Assembly (NCBI GenBank): GCA_001797815.1
Contig: MGQK01000108.1
Span: 2,494-10,271, forward strand
DNA: 7,778 bases
DNA from: Deltaproteobacteria bacterium RBG_13_61_14
GTDB taxonomy: Bacteria > RBG-13-61-14
Direction: 5' to 3'
Of this stretch, positions 76 to 7,778 are shown piece by piece; position 1 is the stretch's first letter; the number at the start of each line of letters is the position of its first letter. Position numbers and translations under genes: made by a program. The notes under the pieces were generated by a model. That model made no database searches, had not been told where the DNA came from, and saw nothing but the letters and a program-made list of their open reading frames with translations.

Positions 76-120
76 GAGGAAAGGGCGCAGCAAAGCCGAA
101 GGCGAAACCCAAATGCACAG
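76..120 (-). repeat. Left copy of a 45-bp inverted repeat flanking the operon
   Basis: The reverse complement of 76-120 matches 5911-5955 at 42 of 45 positions. Mismatches are at repeat positions 6, 9 and 20. Similarity fades outward on the inner side (about 8 further bases, 6 matching) and stops abruptly on the outer side. It begins 16 nt after the stop of the upstream gene fragment. The adjoining bases 50-75 (CCGGCTTGCGGGAATGA core) resemble dispersed intergenic hairpin repeats found in many proteobacterial genomes. It may therefore be a genome-wide repeat rather than an element terminus. No target-site duplication was seen next to it. Confidence 0.75.
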
Positions 121-150
121 AGCAGCAAATCCTTACTAGGTGCTCTTAAC

Positions 151-201: not shown

Positions 202-1164
202 ATGTACTCAATGCTGCCTACCCCCAATCAAGAACCTCTTCCTCGCCTAGGCAATCTGAAAGTGCGGGTGACCGCTTCCGGTGTCCACTTGTTCGATCGA
301 GTGAGCGGCCTTAATGTGCTTCTCGATGAGATTCGCGTACAGCCAGACTCCTTTGCTCGGGCGCCCCGTCATGTTTCGATCTCACTCACAAACACCTGCG
401 ACTTGACGTGCCCATACTGCTTCGTTCCCCGGTCGCCGGAGTTCCTAGGCAGAACGCGGCTCTGCCGATGGCTCGACGAACTGGATCGCAGTGGTTGTCT
501 CGGGGTCGGATTCGGCGGTGGAGAACCCACACTCCACCCAGATATCGAAGATCTGTGCCGATACACAGCTCTTCACACCCGGTTGGGCTTGACGTTGACC
601 ACACATGGGCATCGGCTCGACAGCCGACTGGCCGAGGCTCTTTCTAGGAACGTGCACTTCCTTAGGGTTAGCATGGACGGCGTCGGCAGCACCTACGAGG
701 CGCTTCGTGGCCGACCGTTCTTAGACTTCCTCAGGCAACTCGAGCTTATCCGCGCCATCGCACCCTTCGGGATCAACTATGTCGTGAACTCACGAACATT
801 CGCGGATCTCGACAGCGCCGTATCATTGGCCGCGGAGCGTGGCGCCGTGGAATTCCTCCTCTTGCCTGAGGTTCCTTCACGCGCTGGCGGCGGCATCGAC
901 TTGCGAACGCTACAAGCGCTCAAACAGTGGGCGTCGTCCTACCACGGGGAACTCCGGCTCACGATCAACGAGGCGACCGCTAGCGGCTTCCCTGTATGCG
1001 TTCCTTTCCCCGACGAAAATGGGCTTCTAGCCTACGCACATATCGATGCTGCGGGGATCGTCAGGCGATCATCGTACAACAGATCGGGCGTGGCGATAGG
1101 GACCCGTGGGATCTTGGAGGCGATCGAGATATTGGAGAAGCGCCCGGAAGAGGTGGTCAGATGA
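202..1164 (+). CDS. Radical SAM protein with a cysteine-poor, SPASM-like C-terminus
   Basis: This 320-aa protein carries the CxxxCxxC cluster motif at residues 66-73 (C66, C70, C73), which would bind the SAM-cleaving [4Fe-4S] cluster. It also has the GGGEP motif at 105-109, used to hold the SAM amino group. The segment SMDG...YEALRG near residues 157-170 is typical of the MoaA/PqqE/maturase branch. The C-terminal stretch from about 265 follows the usual SPASM pattern (Cys, then hydrophobic-D-x-x-G-x-V, then a GxxxIG...I-x-E element). However, only C264-267 remains, so auxiliary clusters are unlikely. The substrate is unknown; peptide or protein modification is typical of this branch. The first ATG (202) has a weak AGG six bases upstream; ATG 211 has none. 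The stop overlaps the next start as ATGA, so the two genes are translationally coupled. Viperin-like nucleotide chemistry is less likely from these motifs but not excluded. Confidence 0.9.
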   Translation: MYSMLPTPNQEPLPRLGNLKVRVTASGVHLFDRVSGLNVLLDEIRVQPDSFARAPRHVSISLTNTCDLTCPYCFVPRSPEFLGRTRLCRWLDELDRSGCLGVGFGGGEPTLHPDIEDLCRYTALHTRLGLTLTTHGHRLDSRLAEALSRNVHFLRVSMDGVGSTYEALRGRPFLDFLRQLELIRAIAPFGINYVVNSRTFADLDSAVSLAAERGAVEFLLLPEVPSRAGGGIDLRTLQALKQWASSYHGELRLTINEATASGFPVCVPFPDENGLLAYAHIDAAGIVRRSSYNRSGVAIGTRGILEAIEILEKRPEEVVR

Positions 1165-1571
1165 AACTGTGGAGTTCTTACGGATCGGAACACTCAGCCA
1201 ACTTAGTCATGATTGGGAGATTCAAGGAAGTAGGGGACGCGGAGGCGGCCAAGGAGGTAATTGACCGCCTCACAGAGCAGGCACGCGACGATGAGCGGGC
1301 AGGAAAAACTCATATTGGCGAAACCCCAGACCGCTACACGGACGGCATGCTAGACCTTCTCAGCAAGCTCAACGTAGCAAGCGTGAACCCTGTGGAACTG
1401 GAACAATTCTTGTACGACGTCAAAACAACGCTACGCAACGACGAGATAGTTCTCACGACCGAAGAAAACGAGGTATCCGCTTTTCTGAAGGTTATGATTG
1501 ACAAGGGCGCCCGCGTGGAGGTCTATTCCGCACATGACCACCCTGGAACGGGCTACGGCCGTGGCGGCTGA
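1161..1571 (+). CDS. Small partner protein of the radical SAM enzyme (tentatively DUF6375)
   Basis: The protein is 136 aa and begins MKLWSSYGSEHSANLVMIGRFK. The start at 1161 is supported by the ATGA overlap with the radical SAM stop and by GGAAGAGG at 1146-1153, seven bases upstream. The open frame extends further upstream, but only inside the previous gene. From memory the opening SYGSEHS..LVMIG.FK resembles DUF6375, a family with no known function; this assignment is tentative. The first strand and following helix (about residues 12-45) suggest a small alpha/beta fold. The C-terminal tail is VEVYSAHDHPGTGYGRGG, with His, Asp, Pro, Tyr and four to five Gly. There is no signal peptide or membrane segment. 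Its place between a radical SAM enzyme and a STAND NTPase suggests an adaptor, a specificity factor, or a substrate of the enzyme. Confidence 0.8.
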   Translation: MKLWSSYGSEHSANLVMIGRFKEVGDAEAAKEVIDRLTEQARDDERAGKTHIGETPDRYTDGMLDLLSKLNVASVNPVELEQFLYDVKTTLRNDEIVLTTEENEVSAFLKVMIDKGARVEVYSAHDHPGTGYGRGG

Positions 1572-1583
1572 GGGGTTGAAGGC
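1571..1583 (+). promoter_or_regulatory. Ribosome binding site of the STAND NTPase gene
   Basis: GAGGGG (1570-1575) begins within the TGA of the preceding gene and leaves 8 nt to the ATG at 1584. A second purine run, GAAGG at 1578-1582, is too close to be the main site. The overlap of stop and Shine-Dalgarno implies coupled translation of the small protein and the large NTPase, which would keep their dose linked. Confidence 0.6.
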
Positions 1584-4500
1584 ATGCCCCTTCTGAACTG
1601 GGGCGCGTTCGAAGGTCTGCCCGGGAGCGCCCAAGTCAACTTCGAGATGCTCTGCCGTGCGCTGATTCGTCGTCATTACGGCCGCCACGGGCGGTTCGCC
1701 GCACGTGTCAATCAGCCAGGCGTCGAGTTCCACCTCAAGCTTTCCGAGCCGTGTTCGCTAGGCGACGCCGGTCACTGGTTCGGGTGGCAGTGCCGCTGGT
1801 ACGAGTTATCGGGCAAAGCCGCTTTGGGCTCCGCACGGCGCAAGAAGATAGAGGAAGCCATCGCGACTTCCGAAAAGGAACTGCCCGGATTGACACATTG
1901 GGTCCTATGGACAAGACGCCCACTAACGAAAGCCGACCAAGATTGGTACTTCGGCTTGCCCTCAAGGATGCATCTGCAGCTTTGGACCGCATCAGAAGTG
2001 GATGAACACCTTGCTGGTGACGGCGAGATTCTTCGTGGCGCTTACTTTGGGGACCTCGTGCTTACAGATGAATCGCTCGCCGGACTGCATGCGGTGGCCA
2101 TCTCGCCGGTCAAGCGAAGATGGCATCCCGAACTTCACCAGACTGTAGACGCGGAGAGGGGCGTTCGAAGAGCGCTAGCCGAAACTGGCATTTGGCATGA
2201 CTTGGCCGCGTTAGCTAGCGTACTCAAGATAGAAGCCGGTGTCATGCGGGCGCAATCCGATGGGTTGCCTGACACGCTTGCTGACGGCCTGAACCAGACA
2301 GCCACGGCCGCTCATGCAATGTCAGTAGTACTCATGGACACACACTTAGCGCTGCGGCGCGGTGACCTTGACCTCGTGCGGCAATTGCTCGACGGTCGCC
2401 CCCGGTCCCCACTTCAAGGCATTGTAGAGGTGCCCCGGCGGCTTCGCGCCAGTCGCCATCTCTCTGCGCTAGTTGCGACAAACGTCCTGGCAGACATTCG
2501 CCGGGGCGGATCCCTTCTTGACGCTGTTAACAGGGATCTAGAGAAAAGGGTCGTTGCCGTCGTTGCCAGTGCTGGATGCGGCAAGACGCATCTGTCAGCG
2601 CAACTCACTGCCCCAGCCTCCGATCGTCCCGCCGGCGTTCTCCTGCATGGTGGGCATCTACGCGCTGGCGGCACCCTTGGTCACTTGGCAAGCGACATCG
2701 TTATAGCTGGCCATCCCGTACCTAGCATGGAGGCTTTGGTCGCGGCAGTCGATGCGGCGGGCCAACGCGCCCATCGCCGCATGCCGATCGTTGTCGACGC
2801 CCTCAACGAAGCAGAAGACCCGCGCAACTGGAGAGGCGCACTCGCGTCGCTTGATACATTACTTCGCGCGTACCCGTACGTGCTTGTTGTCTGTACTCTC
2901 CGCACGGACTTTGTGGACGACTGTCTACCACCGGACACGCCCCGCTACGATATCCCCGACTTCGGGCGCGATTCGCTCGAAGCGATCCGCCGCTACTTTG
3001 CTTACTACCGAATTGACGCCACTGACGTCGAGATCCCGTTTGACCTGCTTTCTCATCCATTGACGCTCCACCTATTCTGCGAGGTCACCAACCCTCGACA
3101 TGAAAGTTATGTGGGCGTTGAGGCCATGCCGGGGTCGCTCACCACTGTATTCGATCGCTATCTGGAGAGAGCCGCAGAGCGAATTGCCGAACTAGCTCCA
3201 TTGACGCGGCGGTACTACCAGCAGGATGTCCACGCTGCCCTGGATAAAATCGGATGGGCTCTCTGGGAGAATCACTCCCGCGGCCTGGCACTCGACACCC
3301 TCCGCCGCCTACTTGGTGATGACGGCTTTCCATGGGATCAAAGCATTGTCCGGGCGCTCGAACAGGAAGGTGTGTTGATCCGCGAGTCCGAAGGCCACGG
3401 GGAACCGCCTCGCGTCACGGCGGCGTATGATACGCTCGGCGGCCACCTAGTGGCAAGTGCGATTCTCACGAACAAGGGGCGGATGGGCTTCGAAGGTTGG
3501 CTGCAAGATACGTCTACTCAAACAGCATTTACTGGCTCCTACGAGCACACTCACCCTCTTGCCAACGACATTCTCGCCGCCCTTGCAGGGCTTGTTCCCC
3601 GCCGACTCCACCGCCAACAGCTGTGGCTATTGGTGAACGAGCCCCTGAAGACGCACGCGCTCCGCGCAGCAGCCGATTTGGATGCCGGCTACCTCGATGG
3701 TGCCACAGTTGCTGAACTGGCTCGGCTCGCACGATACCCGCGCCCAGGCACGATTGACCTTCTGAGCCGGTTACGTCGAACTCGAAGCGCACCTTCTCAC
3801 CCGCTAAACGCCGAGTTCCTCGACTCTCTACTCCGTTCTATGCGACTCACGGAGCGCGACCTGCGGTGGAGCGAGTGGATCCGCCGGAGTTCCGAGGAGG
3901 TGATGGGCGATCTTGAGTGGCTTCGAACGCGATGGAGCAAGGAAACGCGGCGCCCGGAAATCGAGCGCCTTCTTGCATTGTGGGTTATGTGGAGTCTATC
4001 TAGCACCGTGCGTGACGTGCGTGACCAGGCGACGCTCACCTTGTACGAGTTCGGATGCAGATACCCGGCGGCGCTATTTGATCTGACTGTGAAAGCCCTC
4101 GCGATCGATGACCCATATGTCCCCGAGCGAATGCTAGCAGCGTCGTACGGTTCGGCCATGGCGCTGCACGCCGATCCCGTCATGGTGGATTTTTCACACA
4201 GCGTGCTCCGCGACTACGGCCTAGCACTCTACCAGTCTCTGTTCGCCGATTCTGCTACGTATTCAACCACACACGCCCTGATGCGGGACTTCGCACGCCA
4301 TACGATTGATCTTGCCGTGATGCATAATCCCACAATGTTGGATTCCAGTCAGAGAAAGCGCACGACACCGCCTTTTGCCGCTGGCGGCATTCGAAGATGG
4401 GGACGCGGCGAAGCGTTTGAGAGCGGTGCAGTGATCGGGTACGGGGAGCCCTTCCACATGGATTTTGCCAACTACACGCTGGGCCGGCTTGTGCCTGATC

Positions 4501-5834
4501 GCGGTAACTACGATTTCAAGAATCGGGAATACCGAGGTGTAGTCGCTAACATCTACTGGCGGCTGCGGCAGCTCGGGTACTCCCCCGCTGACTTTCACGA
4601 CGTAGACAAAGAGATCGCGTCTAGCCACTGGACCGGACGATCAAGCGCGAACGCCGGGAGAATAGACCGTTACGGAAAGAAGTACTTGTGGATCTCGTTC
4701 TATGAGTTGTACGGCTACCGGCACGACAGGGGCCTCCTGAAAGGCAGATTTAGCGAACGGGACGAGCGCCCGTCGGACGTTGATGTAGATCCGAGTTTTC
4801 CGCGCGAACCACGGGATGTACAGATAGTCCGAGCGGATTGGCTCGGGGATCGAAGCCTCTCTTTGCAGACTTGGATAGATCGCGGACGCACCCCTGATAT
4901 CCGGCCATACCTCGTGCTGGATGACATTGACGGCGTTCCCGGACCATGGGCGTTGCTAGACGGATTCATCCTACAGGTAGACAAATCCAGCTATCGAGCG
5001 GTATATGCTCACGCGCGCGGCCAGGCTGTTGCAAAGAAGAACGCCGAGCGACTTCGAACCCTTCTCGTCAAAGATAATCTGAGGTTGGGCTTGCCAGAGC
5101 CACATGAGGATTACTACACCTTTGCCGGCGAGATCCCATGGTGCGACACGTATCCTGCAAACGGCTTCGTTGATCTGACGGTCGAGGTTGGGGTGCGTGC
5201 CAAGCAGGTCGCCGAGGATGAACTACGATTCTACCGTGGGCGGAAACGCATTAGCGAGCAAGAAAGGGTTGCGTTGCTCAAGAGACTGCAGGTCGCTCTC
5301 CTTGGGGATGAGCCGGCCCAGGCACTGGAGATTCTGAAGTCGGAAGGACTAACAGCGCGTAAGAGCGTGAGGTACGGGGAGCGAAAGGAAAGCATTATAG
5401 AGACAGTACCGATCTTCGTGCCGGTACGAGAGAACAACTGGGAAAGCTATCACAGCAGCGTTAACCCAGCTCAAAGCGCCATCGTCCCAGCACGCGAGAT
5501 TGCGGAGTCGCTGCGATTGTTCCGGCGTCCGCCGGCGTGGGACTTGTACGATTCTGAAGGACAACTCGCCACGACCTCGATACGGTGGGGCAATCTCTGG
5601 GAAAACGGGCACAATCTGTGCTATATCCGCACACAGCTATTGGAACGATTCCTGAAGGCACGCCGACTCGAGTTCACCTGGGCGTTCTGGGGCGCAAGAG
5701 AAATGAGGCTGGATTCTAGGAGGCCAGAATCAGAGGTTCAACCCGGTAAAGTGCGCATGGAATTCCAGCGGGCCTACTCATACAGCGGTGGACGGGTGGT
5801 TGCCGCAGGTAGTCCAAAGGGCAAGACAGCTTAG
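1584..5834 (+). CDS. Large STAND NTPase with an N-terminal PD-(D/E)xK-like domain (Avs-like)
   Basis: This is a 1416-aa intact protein. Residues 1-150 look like a Mrr-type restriction-endonuclease fold: FE at 20-21 on the first helix, PGVE at 45-48, then WQCRWYE at 68-74. The last resembles the QxK strand, but with Arg71 where Lys is usual. A helical linker spans about 160-310. The NTPase core has Walker A ASAGCGKT (328-335), Walker B VVDALNE (403-409, typical of STAND/NACHT ATPases) and a sensor-like strand LVVCTLRTDF (434-443). A winged-helix region follows, with YDTLGGHLVASAIL near 615-628, comparable to the FxYxRxxDHLxA segment of Avs-like proteins. Residues about 650-950 are helical and Arg/Leu-rich. 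The last 450 residues include RYGKKYLWISFYEL (about 1029-1042), which from memory recurs in large defence ATPases. The predicted role is intracellular: the C-terminal half senses an invader, ATP drives oligomerisation, and the N-terminal domain acts as effector. No transmembrane segment is evident. Avs-like membership is inferred from architecture, not from a search. Confidence 0.85.
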   Translation: MPLLNWGAFEGLPGSAQVNFEMLCRALIRRHYGRHGRFAARVNQPGVEFHLKLSEPCSLGDAGHWFGWQCRWYELSGKAALGSARRKKIEEAIATSEKELPGLTHWVLWTRRPLTKADQDWYFGLPSRMHLQLWTASEVDEHLAGDGEILRGAYFGDLVLTDESLAGLHAVAISPVKRRWHPELHQTVDAERGVRRALAETGIWHDLAALASVLKIEAGVMRAQSDGLPDTLADGLNQTATAAHAMSVVLMDTHLALRRGDLDLVRQLLDGRPRSPLQGIVEVPRRLRASRHLSALVATNVLADIRRGGSLLDAVNRDLEKRVVAVVASAGCGKTHLSAQLTAPASDRPAGVLLHGGHLRAGGTLGHLASDIVIAGHPVPSMEALVAAVDAAGQRAHRRMPIVVDALNEAEDPRNWRGALASLDTLLRAYPYVLVVCTLRTDFVDDCLPPDTPRYDIPDFGRDSLEAIRRYFAYYRIDATDVEIPFDLLSHPLTLHLFCEVTNPRHESYVGVEAMPGSLTTVFDRYLERAAERIAELAPLTRRYYQQDVHAALDKIGWALWENHSRGLALDTLRRLLGDDGFPWDQSIVRALEQEGVLIRESEGHGEPPRVTAAYDTLGGHLVASAILTNKGRMGFEGWLQDTSTQTAFTGSYEHTHPLANDILAALAGLVPRRLHRQQLWLLVNEPLKTHALRAAADLDAGYLDGATVAELARLARYPRPGTIDLLSRLRRTRSAPSHPLNAEFLDSLLRSMRLTERDLRWSEWIRRSSEEVMGDLEWLRTRWSKETRRPEIERLLALWVMWSLSSTVRDVRDQATLTLYEFGCRYPAALFDLTVKALAIDDPYVPERMLAASYGSAMALHADPVMVDFSHSVLRDYGLALYQSLFADSATYSTTHALMRDFARHTIDLAVMHNPTMLDSSQRKRTTPPFAAGGIRRWGRGEAFESGAVIGYGEPFHMDFANYTLGRLVPDRGNYDFKNREYRGVVANIYWRLRQLGYSPADFHDVDKEIASSHWTGRSSANAGRIDRYGKKYLWISFYELYGYRHDRGLLKGRFSERDERPSDVDVDPSFPREPRDVQIVRADWLGDRSLSLQTWIDRGRTPDIRPYLVLDDIDGVPGPWALLDGFILQVDKSSYRAVYAHARGQAVAKKNAERLRTLLVKDNLRLGLPEPHEDYYTFAGEIPWCDTYPANGFVDLTVEVGVRAKQVAEDELRFYRGRKRISEQERVALLKRLQVALLGDEPAQALEILKSEGLTARKSVRYGERKESIIETVPIFVPVRENNWESYHSSVNPAQSAIVPAREIAESLRLFRRPPAWDLYDSEGQLATTSIRWGNLWENGHNLCYIRTQLLERFLKARRLEFTWAFWGAREMRLDSRRPESEVQPGKVRMEFQRAYSYSGGRVVAAGSPKGKTA
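2565..2588 (+). other. Walker A (P-loop) of the STAND NTPase
   Basis: This encodes ASAGCGKT, residues 328-335 of the large protein. The preceding strand is VVAVV. The first Gly of the GxxxxGK[ST] consensus is Ala here, a common and tolerated change. Lys334 and Thr335, which bind phosphate and magnesium, are intact. The matching Walker B, DALNE, is at 2796-2810, so ATP or another NTP should be bound and hydrolysed. Confidence 0.9.
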
Positions 5835-6029
5835 GTCCATCTGACGCTGGCGTCTCGTGCACAGCTTCGATCAGAGGCCTGCTGCCGGAGGGCGGGACAG
5901 GCTTGCGGTTCTGTGAATATGGGTTTCGCTTTCGGCTTTGCTGCGCCCTTTCCTCTGAAGCCAAGGAGGGGCGTGTCAACGAAGCTATTAGCGACTCCAT
6001 CGAGGAGAGAGTTTGGGAAGGCCGGCATT
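5835..6029. other. Intergenic region after the operon
   Basis: These 195 nt hold the right 45-bp repeat and a short hairpin, GACGC-TG-GCGTC at 5843-5854, starting 9 nt after the STAND stop. No T-run follows the hairpin, so it is at best a weak terminator. AAGGAGGGG at 5963-5971 looks like a strong Shine-Dalgarno sequence but sits only 3 nt from an in-frame GTG at 5973. That makes it a second-choice start for the next gene. No clear -10/-35 pair was seen. Confidence 0.4.
5911..5955 (+). repeat. Right copy of the 45-bp inverted repeat
   Basis: This copy reads CTGTGAATATGGGTTTCGCT and onward to CCTTTCCTC. It is 42/45 identical to the reverse complement of 76-120. It starts 77 nt after the stop of the STAND gene and ends 75 nt before the preferred start of the small downstream gene. 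The two copies enclose the complete three-gene operon and nothing else (about 5.8 kb between them). An open frame passes through it, but its predicted peptide (MNMGFAFGFAAPF) looks like translated repeat. A dispersed genomic repeat is the main alternative to an element end. Confidence 0.75.
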
Positions 6030-6546: not shown

Positions 6547-7161
6547 TCAACTTCTGCTCTGGAGCAACTCTTCCAGCCTGCGCTCCACGAGCCTCCGCCT
6601 TTTCTGCGGTGCTATTCGTTTCACGATGGATCGTGCGATGCGAACCCTGAATCCGCTTGGCCACTCCAATTCCGGCAGGGCCCGAAACAGTTTGGACCGT
6701 GCCGGCGCGAGGTATAAGAAGTCGACCAGCGCCTTCTCCGGCGTAGCCAGCCGGCCGCCGGCGTGACCGGTTGCCTCAAAGCCGAAGAAAAACGACGGCT
6801 GAACGTGATGAATCGAGACGGTCCCAAGCGGGGTGTAGTACCGCCGCGTTCGCGCTAGCGAGACGGCATAGGTGACCACGGGAACCTGCGAGATCATGCC
6901 GTGCAGGTAGAGGGCACTATGAAGCGAAACGTAGGCTGGAAACGGCGCCGTCAGGTACTCGGGCAGGGCCAGGGGATCGATCCGGTCCTTGATGGCCCAG
7001 ACAGCACGCCGCAGGCGAAGCACCTGGCTGGAGGTTGCCAAACGGGCAAGCACGACACTGGCGTTCCCGACCGGAACGCCTAACTGGGTGGCGACATCAC
7101 CCGTGGTGAAGACAGGAACGTTCATGCCGAGGATCCTCGAAAGCGCGTACAGGAGTGTCAT
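6547..7161 (-). CDS. abiEi: AbiEi-type antitoxin of a type IV toxin-antitoxin system
   Basis: This 204-aa protein has an N-terminal winged helix-turn-helix at about residues 17-57 (FTTGDVATQLGVPVGNASVVLARL) that should bind the operon promoter. A C-terminal antitoxin domain follows. The block YVSLHSALYLHGMISQVP (about 78-95) and the later ATPEKALVDFLYL are hallmarks of AbiEi. The family neutralises the AbiEii nucleotidyltransferase without stable protein contact and represses its own operon. The start at 7161 has a strong GGAGG 8 nt upstream and overlaps the toxin stop as ATGA; the internal ATG at 7125 is less well placed. The C-terminus is basic (QKRRRLVERRLEELL). The gene order here is toxin first, antitoxin second, the reverse of the usual abiEi-abiEii order. 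Confidence 0.88.
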   Translation of the reverse strand: MTLLYALSRILGMNVPVFTTGDVATQLGVPVGNASVVLARLATSSQVLRLRRAVWAIKDRIDPLALPEYLTAPFPAYVSLHSALYLHGMISQVPVVTYAVSLARTRRYYTPLGTVSIHHVQPSFFFGFEATGHAGGRLATPEKALVDFLYLAPARSKLFRALPELEWPSGFRVRIARSIVKRIAPQKRRRLVERRLEELLQSRS

Positions 7162-7778
7162 TCCTTCCCCCTCCCAAGCGCCTCCACCACTTCCAGCACG
7201 ATCGATTCCCAGACCGAGGCCGAGTCGTAGCGCGCTTGTTCCTCCGGATGAAGGTACGCCAGCACTTGGCTCTTGAAAGTCGCGAAATCAACCCTCAGAG
7301 CATTCGCGCTCGCCTGCTCGGCGGCTCGTCTGCCGACTTCTCGGAACGTATCCGCGCCGGCACCGCTGGCGATCAAGTGATGAAGATCGAAGACATCCCG
7401 GGCCTGCGTTTCGCGCCGATCCGCCAGCGCGCCTACCTTCTGGCGGAACGCCGCGGGCGCGCCGTAATGACTGACCATCACCGGAGACAATTGGTGGAAG
7501 CGGATCACCTCAGCGTCGATGCTGCCGAACTCAACGCCTTCATCCAGGCCACGGTTTGAGAATTCGATCTTCGTCGGGAGCGAAATATCGTTGCCTTCGG
7601 CGTGAAGGCCGAATTTCCACCGTTGGGTGGTGCCGGTCTGCTTGGCTTCGGAGACGTGTTCGATGCGGATCCCCCTAGCCTCTAGTATTTGAGCGAACGG
7701 ACGCGAATCGATGACACCTCGGACCTTTTCCCTGAGAACGTGGAGATCCACTTCGCCGACGTCGAGATCCATATCTTC
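7158..7778 (-). CDS. abiEii: AbiEii-type nucleotidyltransferase toxin (N-terminus beyond the window)
   Basis: 206 residues are visible and the frame is still open at the right edge. The visible start reads EDMDLDVGEVDLHVL, which matches the acidic DxD part of the GSx10DxD nucleotidyltransferase motif (usually R-x-S-E-D-x-D). ATG 7772 is therefore an internal Met, not the start. The upstream GG-[ST] half of the site, some tens of residues, is missing from view. Downstream, KVGALADRRETQARDVFDLHHLI (about residues 125-147) fits the conserved K...R..RDxxDL segment of AbiEii/MNT-like toxins. The family stops growth by nucleotidylation of tRNA in studied members. Family length is about 280-300 aa, consistent with 70-90 residues lying outside. 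The stop overlaps the abiEi start. Confidence 0.87.
   Translation of the reverse strand, partial: EDMDLDVGEVDLHVLREKVRGVIDSRPFAQILEARGIRIEHVSEAKQTGTTQRWKFGLHAEGNDISLPTKIEFSNRGLDEGVEFGSIDAEVIRFHQLSPVMVSHYGAPAAFRQKVGALADRRETQARDVFDLHHLIASGAGADTFREVGRRAAEQASANALRVDFATFKSQVLAYLHPEEQARYDSASVWESIVLEVVEALGRGKE
7162..7175 (-). promoter_or_regulatory. Strong ribosome binding site of abiEi
   Basis: On the minus strand the bases read GGGAGGGGGAAGGA directly before the ATG at 7161, with GGAGG 8 nt away. The site is inside the last codons of the toxin gene. A strong site for the second gene would favour antitoxin production even though it is distal in the operon. It also supports 7161 as the start rather than 7125. 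Confidence 0.7.

Follow-up and report, generated by a model that had tools for sequence, protein, structure and literature searches.

A radical SAM enzyme and a DUF6375 protein accompany an Avs2-clade STAND NTPase in a widespread, apparently unnamed gene trio

What brings a radical S-adenosylmethionine (SAM) enzyme, a small DUF6375 protein and a large STAND NTPase together in one tight run of genes? The question is raised by a stretch of 7,778 nucleotides (nt) from Deltaproteobacteria bacterium RBG_13_61_14 (contig MGQK01000108.1, positions 2,494 to 10,271; hereafter the window), in which the DUF6375 start codon overlaps the radical SAM stop codon (ATGA) and the STAND gene follows after 12 nt (Table 1). 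A first-pass annotation, made from the sequence alone, had proposed an undescribed defence operon. The lengths, coordinates and overlaps that it gave for the three genes were all exact, its tentative DUF6375 label for the second protein is now certain (148 bits against a gathering threshold of 27.5, residues 1-131), and its description of the third as a STAND ATPase with a nuclease-like N-terminus was borne out by Avs2 profiles and by a match of the N-terminus to Avs4. It had also known of no named system that joins the three. In the literature searched we likewise found no published name, nor any publication that mentions DUF6375 or links radical SAM enzymes with Avs2; the supplements of the original Avs papers may mention the trio. 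The trio is best classed as a widespread, apparently unnamed form of AVAST type 2 that has its own radical SAM/DUF6375 module.

Linkage of the three genes across genomes

Relatives of DUF6375 were sought by motif in 84,980 species genomes and found at 72 loci, one of which duplicates a plasmid record. All three genes were found in identical order and strand at 66 of the 71 independent genome loci, under about 14 phylum labels. Separate homologues, which the first-pass annotation had named as a refuting outcome, are thus not the usual case. In some of the 66 complete loci a gene runs off the contig or is interrupted by a frameshift (e.g. L014, L033, L026, L038). As for the exceptions, the sequence stops directly after DUF6375 (L072) or within it (L079), a transposase occupies the expected place of the large gene (L062, Ensifer), the large gene is absent (L067, Uhrbacteria), or the stop codon of a PglZ-like open reading frame (ORF) marks the beginning of a DUF6375 remnant and the radical SAM gene is missing (L035, 8340-10561). 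The 4-nt overlap of radical SAM stop and DUF6375 start recurs in 51 of 67 loci. On plasmids, a radical SAM gene adjoins every DUF6375 match (16/16) and the large gene is present at five of the six loci inspected, the full trio being seen on cyanobacterial, Deinococcus and Vibrio plasmids.

Since the genome scan relied on short motifs, it was repeated with the Pfam DUF6375 hidden Markov model (HMM) on 386 cyanobacterial, 392 planctomycete and 390 Pseudomonas-order genomes (1168 in total). All nine new above-cut-off matches that were fetched proved to be trios, six of them in species already seen. When the 390 Pseudomonas-order genomes were searched conversely, with the large protein as query, five matches scored 1236 bits or more, and these lie in precisely the five genomes that have DUF6375; the next matches, Avs2-like proteins without the pair, reached at most 177 bits. 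Moreover, the distance correlations among the three trio proteins (0.84, 0.92 and 0.90) were reached in 0 of 2000 permutations.

In an Avs tree built without the N-terminal effector region, the large proteins of the trio form one clade with a support of 100. Its nearest outsiders are L138 and L128, the latter broken by an insertion sequence, and both are without radical SAM and DUF6375 genes. An apparent nesting of the pair-less L128, from Paraburkholderia, inside the trio clade vanished in a tree that included its relative L138 and omitted the N-terminus. The pattern is most simply explained by a single joining of the pair to the receptor gene, retained ever since. On this comparative evidence the three genes are shown to be inherited as a unit, in an arrangement far beyond chance, and the trio is almost certainly one functional unit.

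Table 1. Features of the window, with positions counted from its first nucleotide.
Feature	Position	Strand	Details
Radical SAM gene	202..1164	+	320 aa; Pfam Radical_SAM E=8e-15
DUF6375 gene	1161..1571	+	136 aa; PF19902 E=3e-43
Avs2-clade STAND NTPase gene	1584..5834	+	1416 aa; PADLOC Avs2 (PDLC02164) E=1e-95
DUF6375 N-terminal tail codons	1161..1202	+	tail MKLWSSYGSEHSAN; candidate radical SAM substrate; low pLDDT, high conservation
N-terminal effector domain, Mrr/PD-(D/E)xK-like	1584..1973	+	E48, Q69-C70-R71; Avs4 8dgf, PADLOC Avs2/Avs4
Walker A motif ASAGCGKT, residues 328-335	2565..2588	+	G331, G333, K334 in 70/70 relatives
Inverted repeat, left arm, 53 nt	76..128	.	91% match to right arm; brackets the trio
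Inverted repeat, right arm, 53 nt	5903..5955	.	91% match to left arm
AbiEi antitoxin gene	6547-7161	-	PADLOC AbiEi E=5e-26; neighbour outside the unit
AbiEii nucleotidyltransferase gene	7158-7778, runs off window	-	Pfam AbiEii E=6e-9; neighbour outside the unit

The large protein and its two partners

The STAND protein, left without an Avs family by the first-pass annotation, belongs to a distinct clade of Avs2 (AVAST type 2), with which it shares a homologous STAND core, a C-terminal sensor and an N-terminal PD-(D/E)xK-like effector. It matches the solved Avs2 structure 9o4e (E=4e-63, profile 328-967), its sensor residues R1029, K1032, K1033, Y1034, W1097 and W1122 are common to 10/10 other Avs2 proteins, and its score of 245 bits against the NCBIfam Avs2 model is below the equivalog cut-off of 1000. 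However, the trio protein differs from Avs2 in its separate clade, in its partners and at effector position 44, which is Gln in 70/70 trio proteins against Asp in 9/10 other Avs2. Nor is the single-gene layout of Avs2 seen here: in contrast to the 66 of 71 loci with a trio, radical SAM and DUF6375 ORFs were absent from the examined flanks of ten solitary, intact Avs2 or Avs2-like genes from plasmids and genomes. With the large protein in the Avs2 clade, profile tools such as PADLOC would therefore report Avs2, lack a model for either partner and miss two of the three genes.

Over its first ~110 residues the protein resembles Avs4 (8dgf, E=1e-5, the 102 residues at the N-terminus), and profile searches with this region in 46 relatives matched Avs2 in 46 and Avs4 in 28. 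Within it E48 is invariant and Q69 is found in 67/70 trio proteins.

Among genes related to the large one, the outsider L138 (5896-9774) encodes an Avs2-like protein with a different N-terminus that has no nuclease motif, and a protease-like gene lies downstream (10594-11424). The Avs2-like gene of L128 spans 5977-10496. Two diverged stand-alone Avs2 genes, L125 (6148-10410) and L126 (5145-9383), lie ~13 kb apart on contig G059:C100.

The radical SAM enzyme carries C66-x3-C70-x2-C73 (residues 66-73, nt 397-420) and GGGEP, both invariant among its relatives; its conserved cysteines are limited to positions 66, 70, 73 and 119, with a further Cys at position 266 in 50/74. Its AlphaFold2 model (predicted local distance difference test, pLDDT, 92) is matched near full length by SkfB (Z 26.4, root-mean-square deviation (rmsd) 3.1 Å, 285 residues) and then by SuiB (Z 25.0, rmsd 3.5 Å, 303 residues), while viperin overlays the core alone (Z 23.2, rmsd 2.2 Å, 234 residues). 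Assignment to the maturase branch, as first annotated, thus stands for the fold and fails for the auxiliary-cluster cysteines of the SPASM type, which are absent. SkfB and SuiB mature ribosomally synthesised and post-translationally modified peptides (RiPPs); they are the nearest folds over the whole enzyme, and here too the gene for a small partner protein lies alongside. That partner is, however, a folded protein of 136 aa rather than a precursor peptide, and the enzyme has no recognisable full RiPP recognition element (RRE). Near the N-terminus, residues 19-41 form three strands that superpose on the corresponding end of SuiB, contain no helices and have no Pfam match; these could be a reduced RRE, and the modelled likeness is suggestive only.

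Prokaryotic viperins (pVip) share with the enzyme a radical SAM core with CX3CX2C and a similar size. Here, in contrast, extra N-terminal strands are present, the enzyme is paired with DUF6375, and Gly190, two residues before a conserved Asn, stands in 75/75 sequences where the viperin alignment shows the Lys that binds the triphosphate of the nucleotide. A later strand reads L-L-L-P and has no basic residues. The SkfB/SuiB fold and the Gly in place of the viperin Lys make a protein or peptide a likelier substrate than a nucleotide.

DUF6375 is modelled as a ferredoxin-like domain (pLDDT 86) whose residues 1-10 are predicted to be flexible (pLDDT 51). A Foldseek search with the model gave no match at E<=0.001, and the best VIA-align score (Z 6.5 for Pcc1, with PII and CutA nearby) is that of a common arrangement and uninformative on function. 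The tail follows the pattern M-K-x-W4 ... G-S-E-H11-S12, in which W4, H11 and S12 never vary. Residues 1-14 have an identity of 0.80 against 0.38 for the body in 59 sequences. Because the search motif biases this set, 13 sequences obtained independently of the motif were compared as well, giving 0.66 against 0.33.

Genomic surroundings and mobility

The inverted repeat that brackets the trio is present in only two copies in the 4.7-Mb genome (29-nt core, <=3 mismatches), which suggests that the trio was inserted as a single piece; the arms are possibly the ends of a mobile unit. AbiEi and AbiEii, a type IV toxin-antitoxin pair, lie just downstream of the trio on the opposite strand. An Rfam search of the window returned zero matches. 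The host phylum is sparsely sampled, with three genomes in the collection.

In E. coli the trio was found in 25 of 5426 complete genomes and is thus absent from most strains; the sludge strain WW2 is one environmental carrier. Its islands vary, with integrases beside tRNA-Phe and tRNA-Thr and another island near tRNA-Asn. More widely, the neighbours of the genome loci include type I restriction-modification (R-M) genes, AbiEii, YhcG-type nucleases and integrases, a raw listing with no background rate. The homology to Avs2, the AbiE and R-M neighbours and the E. coli islands, which carry integrases beside tRNA genes and are missing from most strains, argue for a role in defence, and on these grounds the trio very probably serves anti-phage immunity.

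Two carriers show further arrangements. In E. coli MLI107 (L143) a fourth gene (21425-23713) overlaps the Avs stop codon and encodes Mrr_cat-nSTAND3, a second STAND nuclease in tandem. On conjugative resistance plasmids of Vibrio the trio (L006, 9045-14482) has qnrVC6, dfrA and DUF3265 genes as neighbours and looks cassette-like; a simple pattern search for integron attC sites around it found none.

Two prophage contigs from IMG/VR, L140 (7561-8909) and the Mu-like L141 (8001-9265), carry a diverged radical SAM/DUF6375 pair, and no Avs gene was found in the stretches of them that were read. In L140 the pair is reversed in order and followed by type III R-M-like genes. Both prophage tails retain W4, H11 and S12 and are changed at positions that vary little or not at all among the trios (E10G/N14H in one, G8A/N14K in the other). 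This pattern hints that W4, H11 and S12 are important for the enzyme and the remaining residues for the receptor. A radical SAM tree was rooted with outgroups from the same genomes, which were too distant to place the prophage copies. As a lead from two cases, the prophage pairs may be a phage antidote or counter-defence, or may serve another effector.

A possible mechanism and its rivals

We propose that the trio is a subtype of AVAST type 2 in which the receptor is licensed or gated by DUF6375 after modification by the radical SAM enzyme, and we give this a probability of about one half on the strength of comparative sequence evidence. The enzyme would modify a protein, most likely the flexible, near-invariant tail of DUF6375, which is translated directly after it, rather than make a viperin-like nucleotide. 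Modified DUF6375 would then bind the receptor, licensing or restraining it, and the nuclease would fire only once the C-terminal sensor shared with Avs2 meets a phage protein. Licensing and holding off by DUF6375 appear about equally likely. The modification may serve sensing, the distinction of self from non-self or control of the effector, as the first-pass annotation had suggested. A flexible and highly conserved peptide encoded right after a radical SAM gene has the look of a modification site, and a docking peptide would look alike. We consider DUF6375 rather probably a regulator or adaptor of the receptor, with the odds tilting slightly towards its also being the substrate of the enzyme and falling a little short of even for the tail as the site of modification. 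The more specific picture, an NLR-like (nucleotide-binding, leucine-rich-repeat) receptor dependent on an adaptor with a radical SAM-modified N-terminal tail, with prophages carrying the pair as counter-defence, is put forward only tentatively, as something we would sooner doubt than assume.

Several points weigh against the proposal. The SPASM auxiliary-cluster cysteines typical of most peptide maturases are missing from the enzyme, as are those of a twitch cluster. The main motif search partly selected for the DUF6375 tail, and conservation of the tail could reflect docking to the receptor or to the enzyme instead of modification. The prophage pairs without a receptor show that another use of the pair is possible. 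Lastly, effector position 71 is Lys in 58/70 trio proteins and Arg in 12, including the window protein; with this Arg and the change of D44 to Q, nuclease activity of the window protein is likely but not assured.

The pair might instead act like an antitoxin, the modified DUF6375 restraining the nuclease in healthy cells until infection frees it by running down the modified protein, SAM or iron-sulphur function; phage-borne pairs would then be an antidote. Such a model would account for the two prophage contigs that have the pair and no Avs gene, and for the finding that a surviving pair beside a missing or disrupted large gene (L005, L062, L067, L026, L078) is seen more often than the converse, a whole large gene beside a disrupted partner (L038). 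However, the large gene is the bigger target for chance breakage, L038 has an intact large gene together with a split radical SAM gene, which may yet be a sequencing error, and the prophage copies, two divergent singletons in which tail residues have changed, may serve another effector. On balance we regard this antitoxin-like model as less likely than not.

Lower still stands viperin-like chemistry, in which the enzyme would make a chain-terminating or signalling nucleotide analogue, with DUF6375 as cofactor or sensor and the STAND nuclease as a second layer. The best PADLOC match of the enzyme is indeed to pVip (E=4e-14) and viperin overlays its core closely, but the NCBIfam viperin score is only 39.6 bits against a cut-off of 180, Gly190 and the L-L-L-P strand depart from viperin, and SkfB and SuiB are nearer over the full length. 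Nucleotide chemistry of the viperin type was disfavoured on the score and on Gly190, and we hold it to be improbable. An ordinary Avs2 beside an unrelated but useful pair, such as a toxin-antitoxin or anti-plasmid unit of its own, would explain why the pair occurs in two prophages without the large gene. Set against this are the reciprocal one-to-one occurrence, the single clade, the co-divergence (r=0.84-0.92 across ~14 phylum labels) and the translational overlap. Mere passenger linkage was rejected on the reciprocal HMM counts and the co-divergence, and has very little probability left.

Precedents exist for parts of the proposed licensing or gating by modified DUF6375. Kaur et al. (2020, PMC7159879) predicted that FxSxx peptides modified by radical SAM-SPASM enzymes are coupled with TIR-AP-ATPases; the idea of a conflict locus that combines a radical SAM enzyme with a small protein and a STAND-type ATPase is shared with the trio. 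Those systems, however, have a SPASM-type enzyme, a zincin peptidase, a variable precursor with a C-terminal core peptide and a TIR effector, whereas the trio has an enzyme without SPASM cysteines, a DUF6375 protein that is folded and has its conserved tail at the N-terminus, an Avs2 receptor with a nuclease-like domain, and no peptidase. There is no further gene in the three-gene run and no FxSxx end in the DUF6375 alignment. In the nuclease-protease pairs of AVAST type 1 and Hachiman, an added partner-enzyme module gates a nuclease (PMC12799240). These are a precedent for a gated Avs, but act by proteolysis of a separate nuclease, where radical chemistry on a small protein is proposed for the trio.

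The E. coli carriers offer a ready test bed, and the prophage pairs without a receptor raise a counter-defence hypothesis that is open to testing. If the pair is essential, post-translational radical chemistry would be a new layer of control on NLR-like immunity, and DUF6375 would gain a role.

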